DNA from: an uncultured Kangiella sp.
GTDB taxonomy: Bacteria > Pseudomonadota > Gammaproteobacteria > Enterobacterales > Kangiellaceae
DNA: 64,000 nucleotides
NCBI GenBank assembly: GCA_947503435.1
Contig: CANNDL010000003.1
Location: forward strand, 372,001-436,000
Direction: 5' to 3'
Below the pieces are notes generated by a model. It worked only from the letters and a program-made list of their open reading frames with translations, made no database searches and was not told where the DNA came from. A program made the translations under genes and the position numbers. Of this stretch, positions 5,124 through 28,098 are shown one piece after another. Every line of letters begins with the position of its first letter. The first letter of the stretch is position 1.

Positions 5124-5879
5124 TTAACCTGCTGCTCTACATATTGCTATAAATTGTTCGGCTTTTAACGAAGCGCCACCAATCAAACCACCATCGATAT
5201 CGACTTGCGCTAAAAGTTGTTCAGCGTTAGTAGGATTCATACTACCGCCATATAAAATTTGTGTTTTCTCTGCCACATCACCATCAAACTGGGCTAAATG
5301 TGATCTAATTTCTGCGTGTACTTCTTGAGCTTGCTCTGGAGTTGCGGTTTTACCAGTACCAATGGCCCAGACTGGCTCATATGCAATAACGCCTTTGCCC
5401 AAAGCTTCAATGCCATAATGATTGATTACCGCATCAATTTGGCTTTTCACTACATCCATAGTGGTGCCAGCTTCACGCTCTTCAAGGGTTTCTCCTATAC
5501 AAAGTACAGGAATTAAGTCATAACCTAATGCAGCATTATATTTATCAGCAACCATTTTAGACGACTCGCCATATAGGCTACGACGCTCTGAATGCCCGAC
5601 TAGTACATACTGACCACCAATATCGGCTAGCATAGCGCCACTGATCTCGCCAGTAAAAGCCCCTTTGGCTTCATGCGATAAGTTCTGTGCACCCACTTTT
5701 ATTTGAGAGCTTTCTGCTAAACCAATAACTAACGGCATATATACAGAAGGAGCGCACACTAAAATAGCGCTATTCCAAGCGGGATCAAGTTTATCTTTAA
5801 TGCCGTTCATTAACTCTTGAATGAACTGGCGATCGCCGTTCATTTTCCAGTTTCCGGCTATTAATGTCTGTCTTGTCAT
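5124..5879 (-). CDS. tpiA: Triosephosphate isomerase
   Basis: This glycolytic/gluconeogenic enzyme interconverts dihydroxyacetone phosphate and glyceraldehyde 3-phosphate in the cytoplasm. The 251 residues have the normal family length. The substrate lysine is K12 in AGNWKMNG, the catalytic histidine lies in VGHSERR, and the catalytic glutamate in AYEPVWAIGTGKTA, whose last part is the mobile loop 6. YGGSMNP binds phosphate. The gene leads the tpiA-secG-tRNA-Leu unit. A TAAAAT -10-like element lies upstream within the long gap shared with nqrA. Confidence 0.97.
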   Translation of the reverse strand: MTRQTLIAGNWKMNGDRQFIQELMNGIKDKLDPAWNSAILVCAPSVYMPLVIGLAESSQIKVGAQNLSHEAKGAFTGEISGAMLADIGGQYVLVGHSERRSLYGESSKMVADKYNAALGYDLIPVLCIGETLEEREAGTTMDVVKSQIDAVINHYGIEALGKGVIAYEPVWAIGTGKTATPEQAQEVHAEIRSHLAQFDGDVAEKTQILYGGSMNPTNAEQLLAQVDIDGGLIGGASLKAEQFIAICRAAG

Positions 5880-6101
5880 ACGCCTATTTATATTGATTTA
5901 AAGCATCTATTTTAACGCAATTAACTTACTAGTAATTAACAAGTTAAAATTAGGTTAAATTTCGGCTTTTTACAAAAGGGCGCAAATGATATATGAAAGC
6001 CCTATTAAGCACAAGGACTAAAGCCACGAAAGACCGCTAGATACTTGTGCAATTAAATTATTTCCCTATAAAAATCATGGATTTTGAACCCCTGATCCAA
6101 G

Positions 6102-6330: not shown

Positions 6331-7677
6331 ATGATTAAGATTAAGAAAGGCTTGGATTTGCCCATAGAAGGCCAACCTGAGCAAACGATCTCAGACGGTG
6401 CTACGGTAAAAACCGTCGCCATTCTCGGCGAAGATTATGTAGGCATGAAGCCGACCATGCACGTTAAAGTGGGTGATTCGGTTAAAAAAGGTCAACTAAT
6501 TTTCGACGATAAAAAGACTCCCGGAGTAAAGTATACAGCTCCAGCGGGAGGCACCGTAACCGCCATCAACCGTGGAGCTAAGCGTAAACTATTATCCGTA
6601 GTTGTAGAAATTGCTGAGCAAGAAGAAGCAGTTAGCTTTAATCAATTTTCTGTTGACCAATTAGCTGGCCTTGAGCGCCAAGCGATAGTTGAGCAGATGG
6701 TAGAGTCAGGGCTTTGGACTGCATTGCGTACACGTCCTTATTCAAAAGTACCGGCGATTGATAGTGAAACCAAAGCCATTTTTGTATCAGCCATGGATAC
6801 CAATCCTTTAGCGGCTGATCCAGAAGTTGTAATCGTGGAAAACGCAGAAGCCTTTAACCAAGGGTTAAGCCTTCTTACTACCTTATCAGCAGGCAAAGTA
6901 TTCGTTGGTACCAAAGATGGTAGCAACTTGAGCAAGCTTGATCATCCTAAAGTTCAATATGAAAGCTTCTCTGGCCCACACCCTGCAGGCAACGTTGGTA
7001 CCCATATCCATTTCTTATATCCCGCTGCTTCAGACAATACGGTTTGGCATTTAGGTTATCAAGACGTGATTGCGCTAGCCAAGTTATTCACTACGGGCGA
7101 GCTATATATGGATCGAGTTGCTGCCATAGGCGGGAGCATGATCAAAAAACCTCATCTTGTACGCACCCGTGTAGGCGCGAATATTGATGAATTGCTTGCT
7201 GGCGAAGAAACTGATGCGGATAACCGTCATTTATCGGGTTCAGTATTAAATGGCTTCCACGCTATTGAATCACGTGCATTCTTAGGTCGTTATCACAACC
7301 AGGTTACCGTGATTCGTGAAGGTCGTGAAAAGGAGTTCTTCGGCTGGGCAATGCCTGGTGCCAACAAGTTCTCTGTAACTCGCGCCTTTATTTCAGCGTT
7401 CTTTCCAAAGAAAAGCTATGCCATGACCACCACCACTGGCGGTTCTGAGCGCGCTATCATGCCAATTGGCCTTTATGAAAGGGTCATGCCTTTAGACATA
7501 TTGCCGACTCAATTGATTCGTGCATTAGTGACTGGTGATACCGATACGGCACAAAAACTTGGTGCGCTTGAGTTGGATGAAGAAGATTTAGCTTTATGTA
7601 CTTATGTTTGTGCAGGCAAATATGAGTATGGCCCAATTCTTCGTGAAAACCTGACTAGAATTGAGAAGGAAGGTTAA
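6331..7677 (+). CDS. nqrA: Na+-translocating NADH:quinone reductase subunit A
   Basis: This is the peripheral cytoplasmic subunit of the six-subunit sodium-pumping NADH dehydrogenase. The 448 residues match the family length and begin with the typical [14 protein letters not shown] biotinyl/lipoyl-like fold ([22 protein letters not shown]) follows near residue 45. [19 protein letters not shown] and the C-terminal cysteine-containing [18 protein letters not shown] are family landmarks. It is the first gene of the nqrABCDEF operon, two bases before nqrB. Confidence 0.97.
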
Positions 7678-8885: not shown

Positions 8886-9636
8886 TAAAGAAAGTCCTAC
8901 TAAAACTATTATAGTTGCATTGCTATTAAGCTTAGTATGCTCGGTCGTGGTATCCACGGCTGCCATTAAGCTAAAGCCATTGCAGCAGAAAAACCAAGCA
9001 TTAGATAAAAAGCGCAATATCCTAGTTGCTGCAGGCATGATGGAAGAAAAATCTTCTGCCGATATTGAAGCCTTATTCAACCAAGTAGAGTCTAAGTTTG
9101 TTGATTTAGCTTCTGGAGAATTCGTTGAAGAACCTGTTGGCTTCGATCAACGCGCTTTTGCAAAGAACGCTGACACGAACCTTGTTTTAACAGCTGAACA
9201 AGACTTAGGCGGCATCGGCAAACGCTCTCAAATTGCCAATGTTTATATCGTTAAAAATAATGGTCAGTTAGACAGCATTATTTTACCGATTCACGGCAAA
9301 GGCCTATTTTCAACTTTGTATGGTTTCATTGCTTTGGATAAAGACCTAAAAACCGTTAAAGGTCTTAAATATTATGAGCATGGTGAAACTCCTGGTTTAG
9401 GTGCTGAAGTTGAAAACCCAAGTTGGCTGGCGAAATGGCCAGGCAAACAAGTGTTAGATGCTAATGGCGAGCCAGTTTTGGCTTTGGTTAAAACTGTTGC
9501 TGACGATAACAATGAAGTTGATGCCCTTTCTGGCGCTACTTGGACTACCAATGGCGTTGAAGGCATGATCCACTTCTGGTTAGGCGACAACGGCTTTGGT
9601 CCTTTCTTAGATAAAGTAAGAGCGGAGGGTCTATAA
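8878..9636 (+). CDS. nqrC: Na+-translocating NADH:quinone reductase subunit C
   Basis: This is the second covalently flavinylated subunit. It has one N-terminal membrane anchor (about residues 10-31) and a large periplasmic FMN domain. The attachment motif SGATWTTNG ends near the C-terminus, with T221 as the FMN-bearing threonine. The preceding [14 protein letters not shown] is a standard NqrC/RnfG motif. The length of 252 residues is normal. It starts inside the end of nqrB and ends one base before nqrD. Confidence 0.97.
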
Positions 9637-27546: not shown

Positions 27547-27590
27547 AGAAACCTCCAAAAAATATGCTCAAGCTACTGCAAAAATAGGGT

Positions 27591-27652
27591 GCAAAAAATC
27601 CAGACTCATTCATTAATGAGTCCGTAACTATCAAGTTTCACGGATTTTTGGC
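27591..27652 (-). promoter_or_regulatory. Structured leader of carA
   Basis: In the carA 5' leader GCCAAAAATCC (27652-27642) can pair with GGATTTTTTGC (27601-27591) at 10 of 11 positions. Inside lies a perfect hairpin GACTCATT/AATGAGTC (27603-27622). The predicted transcript start near 27657 is right at the first arm. It may be an attenuation or stability element; no known pyrimidine or arginine box is matched. Confidence 0.35.
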
Positions 27653-27663
27653 AAATTCGCGCT

Positions 27664-27693
27664 ATTTTAAGGGATCGCTCGTTTTAAGTCTAA
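27664..27693 (-). promoter_or_regulatory. Probable carAB promoter
   Basis: On the minus strand TTAGAC (27693-27688) and TAAAAT (27669-27664) are spaced by 18 bases. This would give a leader of about 110 bases. Confidence 0.5.
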
Positions 27694-27769: not shown

Positions 27770-27898
27770 AAAAGAAAAAGGGCGCTATTCGCGCCCATTT
27801 TCGTTTGGCCTCATGCCAGTTTTAGATGCTCCCTGCGACTTCCGTGTTTCACCATGTCCATCGGCTTTGTCTTCCTTAGATGTACCTCCTTGGTACAG
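27770..27898 (-). ncRNA. Candidate Rsm/Csr-type regulatory RNA (CsrA sponge)
   Basis: About 128 bases on the minus strand carry five GGA motifs in under 75 bases (plus-strand TCC at 27830, 27841, 27857, 27873, 27887). The first sits in the loop of GTACC-AAGGA-GGTAC (27882-27896) and the second in TCT-AAGGA-AGA (27870-27880). GGA in a hairpin loop is the CsrA/RsmA binding signature. A TTGCAA/TAAATT promoter precedes it and a GC-rich terminator ends it. Its role would be to sequester CsrA, as RsmY/RsmZ do. No long reading frame with a ribosome-binding site occupies this strand. Family membership is inferred from motif density. Confidence 0.62.
27775..27796 (-). terminator. Terminator of the candidate Rsm RNA
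   Basis: GGGCGC and GCGCCC (27780-27785, 27791-27796) pair around a five-base loop, followed on the minus strand by TTTTTC. The T-run shows that the transcript reads on the minus strand, from the dapB side. Confidence 0.8.
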
Positions 27899-27903
27899 GA
27901 TTT

Positions 27904-27931
27904 AATTTACGCTTATTTTTTATGATTGCAA
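27904..27931 (-). promoter_or_regulatory. Promoter of the candidate Rsm RNA
   Basis: On the minus strand TTGCAA (27931-27926) and TAAATT (27909-27904) are spaced by 16 bases, with initiation expected near 27897, at the base of the first hairpin. Confidence 0.55.
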
Positions 27932-27990: not shown

Positions 27991-28098
27991 CTTACATGAA
28001 AAACCACAGGATCATTAAACAAAAACGGGTTCAAAACCGACCTATTTCTGGTTAAATTTTAGGCTATAACTTACAGGTGGAATGGACAATCTCTTACA
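27991..28098 (-). promoter_or_regulatory. Possible GacA activator sites upstream of the Rsm RNA
   Basis: TGTAAG occurs three times on the minus strand (28098, 28075 and 27996 leftward). The middle one reads TGTAAG-N6-CCTAAA, matching four of six positions of the second half of the GacA box (TGTAAG-N6-CTTACA), about 170 bases upstream of the start. GacA boxes of rsm genes lie at similar distances. The remaining bases up to dapB show nothing else. Confidence 0.4.

Follow-up and report, generated by a model that had tools for sequence, protein, structure and literature searches.

A very probable CsrB-type CsrA decoy RNA encoded between dapB and carA in Kangiella

Bacteria of the genus Kangiella very probably carry, on the strand between dapB and carA, a gene for a short regulatory RNA that serves as the cell's CsrA decoy. 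Here, we analysed this gene in a 64-kb stretch of DNA from an uncultured Kangiella sp. (the entire stretch is called 'the window' in the following), where it occupies positions 27771..27899 of the minus strand, and in an alignment of 19 Kangiella sequences, as it is conserved in 19 of 20 Kangiella genomes. Its identity as a small RNA (sRNA) gene is well supported. We are highly confident that the locus encodes a free-standing CsrB-type sRNA, i.e. a CsrA sponge with its own terminator, which would be switched on by BarA-UvrY via an upstream element; transcription, UvrY control, CsrA binding and sequestration are predicted from homology and anatomy. An earlier note on this DNA had proposed an Rsm/Csr-type sRNA that might be a CsrA sponge, a proposal that gains support from the GGA hairpins, the upstream element, the genes for CsrA, UvrY and a kinase, and the matches of a model (R2) described below.

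Results

The RNA gene comprises about 129 bases and is predicted to yield an RNA of approximately 120-130 nt. Its start was placed at about 27897-27898 on the grounds of a -10-like hexamer and the first hairpin, its end in a T-run near 27775. On the minus strand, dapB (28952-28146) lies upstream and carA (27558-26395) downstream. A DNA search found the gene in 19/20 Kangiella genomes (E <= 2.4e-19); the remaining genome, 55% complete, gave short matches only. The gap between carA and dapB, which the earlier note had named as the site, proved to be the usual one in the genus, with dapB and carA flanking the RNA in all 18 Kangiella loci that reach both genes, while the nineteenth starts at a contig end. 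At one Kangiella locus (L011), the distance before carA is about 1.2 kb.

Five GGA motifs were found on the minus strand at RNA positions 11, 25, 41, 57 and 68, just as had been claimed for some 75 bases of this stretch. Since five or more GGAs also turned up 341 times when the 78-nt core was shuffled 5000 times with its dinucleotides preserved, and since both strands of the window hold three clusters of five GGAs per 75 bases, the RNA's own included, the GGA count alone is weak evidence. That shuffle frequency, together with a promoter that matches the consensus at only 8/12 positions, is what speaks for a chance GGA cluster in intergenic DNA flanked by a spurious promoter and terminator. Against such an accident, 19 genomes show conservation, paired changes and the upstream element, which leave it next to no probability. 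The case for a real RNA gene thus lies in conservation (19/20 genomes; five body GGAs in 19/19 aligned Kangiella sequences) and not in the number of GGAs, and the loss of the GGA hairpins in relatives, named beforehand as one observation that would count against the proposal, is not what the 19 of 20 genomes display. A sixth GGA, located in the terminator hairpin, occurs in seven of the aligned sequences.

Folding, suggested earlier as a check, gave a structure better than that of shuffled sequences (z -2.38; 2/200 as good). In the consensus structure, GGA 1, 3 and 5 lie inside hairpin loops and GGA 2 and 4 are single-stranded. The alignment columns of four GGAs are kept in 19/19 sequences, those of GGA 2 in 6/19 only, owing to gaps beside it. 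Hairpin 1 (27881..27897, minus strand; UGUACC-AAGGA-GGUACA) exposes GGA 1 in its loop; 98.9% of its cells are paired and one of its pairs is G-C in 17 and A-U in 2 of the 19 sequences. The loop AAGGA had been recognised correctly in the earlier note, but with a stem of five pairs, where we count six (UGUACC/GGUACA). GGA 2 follows at 27873..27875 (minus strand). The window's sequence does allow a three-pair hairpin UCU-AAGGA-AGA, also proposed before, yet relatives do not preserve it. Consensus hairpin 2 (27851..27865, minus strand; GCCG-AUGGACA-UGGU) holds GGA 3 in its loop, with 100% of cells paired and one pair changed on both sides, and GGA 4 stands at 27841..27843 (minus strand). GGA 5 is part of a mini-hairpin, GC-AGGGA-GC (27828..27836, minus strand), which aligns to GCAGGGAGCA of CsrB and forms a block common to the CsrB 3' end; covariation lends it no support, as both its pairs are invariant. 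Hairpin 4 (27807..27817, minus strand; GGC-AUGAG-GCC), which has no GGA in Kangiella, again shows one pair changed on both sides. Altogether, four pairs are changed on both sides, one in each of four helices, a value that none of 500 shuffles reached (shuffled mean 0.5), although such counts are small and the relatedness of the 19 sequences inflates tests of this kind. The number of further pair types was not above that of the shuffles (204/500 reach the observed value).

Upstream of hairpin 1, a -10-like hexamer TAAATT (27904..27909, minus strand) appears as TAAATT, TAGATT, TAAAGT or TAGAGT in the aligned relatives and is separated by a 16-base spacer from a -35-like hexamer TTGCAA (27926..27931, minus strand), whose TTG is invariant in 19 aligned loci. 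Hexamers with this spacing had been pointed out previously and, with a consensus match of only 8/12, form a candidate promoter that is kept in relatives. The pair is absent from our promoter scan because the scan needed 9/12; it listed instead an overlapping pair at 27943-27915 on the same strand. Promoter-like sites numbered 4 in the region compared to 2.1 expected, and among the overlapping pairs TTGCAA/TAAATT is the one kept across relatives. At the other end, the terminator scan agreed with the earlier description of a GC-rich terminator with T-run: an intrinsic terminator (27775..27796, minus strand) with one pair changed on both sides, reading GGGCGC-GAATA-GCGCCC-TTTTTC at 27796-27780. 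Terminator-like sites in the region amounted to 5 compared to 0.4 expected, and the terminator accompanies the RNA in each of the 19 Kangiella genomes that have it.

Further upstream lies a predicted UvrY/GacA-type element (28070..28098, minus strand), composed of the 18-mer TGTAAGAGATTGTCCATT (28098-28081), 5 bp and the half-site TGTAAG (28075-28070), and centred at about -190 to -192 in the window. A relaxed pattern, fitted to these same loci, recovers the element in 18/18 Kangiella loci with upstream sequence, and its centre lies at -187.5 to -190.5 in all 18, measured from a reference start set by hairpin 1. For E. coli csrB, PMC4682653 places the centre of a UvrY inverted repeat at -183/-182 and, 5 bp further downstream, TGTAGGAGA; it prints TGTGAGACATTGACCATT as the UvrY site of Salmonella csrC. 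Compared to the latter, the Kangiella element is identical at 18/18 bases in two loci (L004 and L012) and at 15/18 in the window, ranging from 10 to 18 over the 18 loci, with some species at the low values of 10 or 11. The corresponding ranges are 11 to 15 of 18 for the E. coli csrC site and 7 to 12 of 18 for the E. coli csrB palindrome. Judged by these matches and by the half-site 5 bp downstream, the element is csrC-like in its letters and csrB-like in the placement of its second half-site.

A strict version of the pattern occurs once per genome in 15/20 Kangiella genomes, 14 times at the RNA; the fifteenth hit (G011) lies near a contig end, and the RNA of that genome lies at the end of another contig. 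That the strict pattern hits RNA loci follows from its construction, hence the result is that there are no hits elsewhere. The pattern in reverse, used as a control, was hit once in the 20 genomes, and the four RNA-bearing genomes without the strict pattern deviate from it at one or two positions. The element at the RNA appears to be the main or only strong UvrY site in the Kangiella genome.

Some sRNAs both base-pair with mRNAs and bind CsrA. A GGA-rich sRNA that mainly base-pairs with mRNAs (Hfq-type), with CsrA binding as a secondary property, would fit the conserved single-stranded segments that we observed, but here the GGA motifs are conserved along with their loops, and the upstream element resembles that of csrB/csrC genes. 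We therefore regard a mainly base-pairing RNA as very unlikely and retain the CsrA sponge as the preferred reading.

The proteins for such a system are encoded as well. CsrA (PF02599) was found in 20/20 Kangiella genomes, twice in two of them, and the first 60 residues of CsrA from the window's genome reach 119.5 bits with the NCBIfam CsrA model (cut-off 73). Within the window's genome, the scope of both searches, UvrY/GacA scored 317.2 bits (cut-off 280), and the best BarA/GacS-like kinase, a 942-residue open frame, scored 888.5 bits, which is 1.5 under its cut-off of 890. Paired close csrA matches were noted at G006:C1:1322444-1323100 and G007:C26:77955-79335.

How would the RNA act? Signalling by the BarA/GacS-type kinase would lead to phosphorylated UvrY/GacA, which would bind the element about 190 bp upstream and turn the promoter on. 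Transcription would end at the RNA's own terminator, before carA is reached. The GGA motifs, three of them presented in consensus hairpin loops, would then bind CsrA dimers and keep them off mRNAs, and capture of CsrA by the RNA would free CsrA-repressed mRNAs.

At gathering level, Rfam reported tRNA only over the whole window. When the threshold was lifted for the stretch around the gene (496 bases), CsrB (RF00018) came out on top with 26.5 bits (E 1.5e-5). The CsrB check that the earlier note had suggested thus gave a match, albeit under the gathering score of 71 bits, so that the RNA falls outside the Rfam family as defined there. This alignment covers the block GCAGGGAGCA and the terminator, at the 3' end of CsrB. 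The other models suggested at the time, RsmY, RsmZ (PrrB/RsmZ) and TwoAYGGAY, were not among the matches listed for the stretch up to E = 10, and neither was CsrC (RF00084); one lower-scoring same-clan overlap, its family not given, comes in addition. RsmY, RsmZ and TwoAYGGAY likewise gave nothing at gathering score in the window or in the 19 Kangiella loci, none of which reaches any Rfam gathering score (0/19), and eight loci from other Kangiellaceae gave no gathering-level match either. Of the 'Rsm/Csr-type' assignment, the Csr part stands, the RNA's nearest kin being the CsrB 3' end rather than RsmY, RsmZ or TwoAYGGAY. Elsewhere in its own genome, RF00018 produced only a chance-level match (8.4 bits, E 5.2). 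The same genome search yielded matches in 8/14 control genomes, over the cut-off in one, and weak RF00018 matches therefore mean little.

A model (R2) built from 13 Kangiellaceae sequences was run on 197 genomes drawn from the order, with the stricter filters that apply when many genomes are searched, and matched 81. These comprise 13 Kangiella genomes (a single match in each), one further genome of the Kangiellaceae and 67 genomes of other families, 40 of which have two to four matches; the remaining 116/197 had none. When R2-matched loci were scanned with Rfam, CsrB passed the gathering score at the position of the match in 6/17 and failed to do so in 11; the block GCARGGAGC was present in 15/17 of the order-wide loci read. 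As R2 recovers Rfam-confirmed CsrB genes, the Kangiella RNA is, on this evidence, homologous to the 3' part of CsrB despite its failed Rfam score. In E. coli, CsrB turnover is set by this 3' part, which contains two CsrA sites and, ahead of the terminator, an unstructured RNase E site (PMC5027483); the 3' part may have the same role in Kangiella.

With another model, R1, matches at E <= 1 were listed in at least 39 of 40 genomes of the family. Many weak ones were rejected, since they fall on the opposite strand of these terminators or are chance-like. Outside the genus, 8 of the 11 R1 loci read look real (L120-L126, L130), whereas L127, L128 and L129 were dropped as chance. Neither R1 nor R2 revealed a second Csr RNA in the window's own genome, where a diverged copy could escape both: of the next best R1 matches, one scored 22.8 bits and lies antisense to this terminator region, the other scored 22.1 bits, and R2 gave one match at E <= 0.001. 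No other Csr sRNA appears to be encoded in the Kangiella genome.

Three genera of the Kangiellaceae have such RNAs between dapB and carA, as does one genome of a second family. Besides Kangiella, genus g6 has an R2 match in the gap in 5/5 genomes and genus g4 in its single genome (1/1), the g4 sequence being part of the R2 training set. In the one genome of genus g5 (1/1), dapB is followed by two tandem RNAs, both in the training set, with carA some 4 kb beyond. In family f4, one genome has an R2 match between carA and dapB with dapB and the RNA both pointing away from carA; in another, whose 4.5-kb contig lacks dapB, carA and dnaJ enclose two matches. In two genomes of family f14, one strong and one weaker match come after dapB, with no carA within the 15-16 kb examined. 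Genera g2 and g3 of the Kangiellaceae have a carA match in 12/13 genomes (14 loci, some cut by contig ends), and neither dapB nor R2 matched in about 1.5 kb beside carA; in six genomes of these two genera, related RNAs were read elsewhere.

Several of these RNAs were also inspected individually. The tandem CsrB-type RNAs after dapB in a Kangiellaceae genus other than Kangiella (L172, G034; both in the training set) lie at 5273-5442 and 5737-5886. Somewhat longer CsrB-type RNAs of g2 and g3 (L121, L122, L123, L124, L125 and L126) were seen near genes that, by their translations, are priA-like, recombinase-like or carbonic anhydrase-like. In two other families, paired CsrB-type matches at L168 (G052; 5418-5566 and 5938-6088), L169 (G095; 7239-7380 and 8993-9157) and L170 (G067; 935-1125 and 1548-1671) are preceded by UvrY-type palindromes and stand beside dapB or between carA and dnaJ.

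These loci also bear on a second role that the site itself might suggest. In Kangiella the RNA is upstream of carA on the same strand, and it could form the 5' leader (attenuator) of carA, transcribed from the same promoter, with the terminator governing read-through into carAB. However, related RNAs stand away from carA or point away from it, which disfavours a leader: the one of G042 points away, G052 and G095 have no carA in the 15-16 kb examined, and those of g2 and g3 lie at other loci. Moreover, 15 loci have a separate hairpin with T-run just before carA (recognised by eye and tool-scored in the window only). We give the leader only a slim chance and keep to a free-standing sponge RNA.

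Discussion

The Kangiella RNA is very probably a further member of the well-known class of Csr sRNAs that was missed here by standard RNA annotation. It resembles CsrB/RsmB (RF00018) in its 3' block GGA..GCAGGGAGCA, in the A-rich stretch before a GC-rich terminator, in the presentation of GGA in loops and in a UvrY-type element that lies about 185-190 bp upstream and is followed after 5 bp by a second half-site. It differs from CsrB in its length (about 128 nt compared to 356 model positions), in its score below the Rfam cut-off, in the hairpin before the terminator, which has no GGA, and in its locus between dapB and carA. Its GGAs number five, compared to 22 in E. coli CsrB as stated in PMC5027483. 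The likeness to Salmonella csrC, whose site as printed in PMC4682653 equals the 18-mers of L004 and L012, lies in the upstream site. A conserved, CsrA-related sRNA of a marine gammaproteobacterium, CsrR2 of Alcanivorax, is similar by its description in PMC9788540, where it is independently transcribed; in contrast to the Kangiella RNA, it is associated with a ferredoxin gene rather than with dapB-carA.

Pseudomonas RsmX, RsmY and RsmZ, with 100-130 nt and few GGAs, have about the format of the Kangiella RNA. The latter is set apart from them by the Rfam matches listed above, and the Pseudomonas GacA box lies nearer to its gene than the Kangiella element does. Among the papers listed for Kangiella CsrA/sRNA and for csrB-dapB-carA, we saw no report of an RNA between dapB and carA of Kangiella, though prediction papers could still hold one.

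Less expected than the membership itself are the common dapB neighbourhood, the occurrence of just one UvrY-type site in a genome and the fact that the standard model overlooks the RNA. Short CsrB relatives lie between dapB and carA in two families or more and directly behind dapB in a third, sometimes in pairs, and those scanned went unseen by Rfam. We tentatively put forward, with a chance just short of even, that the dapB neighbourhood is an old csr locus, of which Kangiella would hold a stripped-down form: a single sponge RNA comprising hardly anything but the CsrB 3' end, and a single strong UvrY-type site per genome. The differing orientation of the f4 match and the greater distance of carA in g5 make this slightly less likely. 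Among 61 named dapB loci, R2 matched the sense strand in 8/8 from Kangiella, which add no evidence to the 20-genome set, and none of the 53 from outside the genus (three Idiomarina included) at E <= 0.1, so the position at dapB is not general.

For Kangiella and its relatives, the RNA likely supplies the sponge of a Csr system for which scanning of their loci with Rfam brought up no Csr RNA, though Kangiella has CsrA. One sponge with about five GGAs and one UvrY-type site per genome would amount to a simple natural test of the minimum number of CsrA sites, and the common place beside dapB offers a handle for finding csr RNAs missed by sequence models.

The separate hairpin before carA deserves mention in its own right. 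In the window, it is found immediately ahead of carA (27559-27670, minus strand; hairpin 27624-27601) as a palindrome of the type GGACTCATT...AATGAGTC with a T-run behind it. Across the 15 Kangiella loci it is imperfect in several cases. The palindrome may be a transcription attenuator of carAB. At some loci (L001 and L005), an upstream TCCGT/ACGGA arm could pair with the 5' side of this palindrome.
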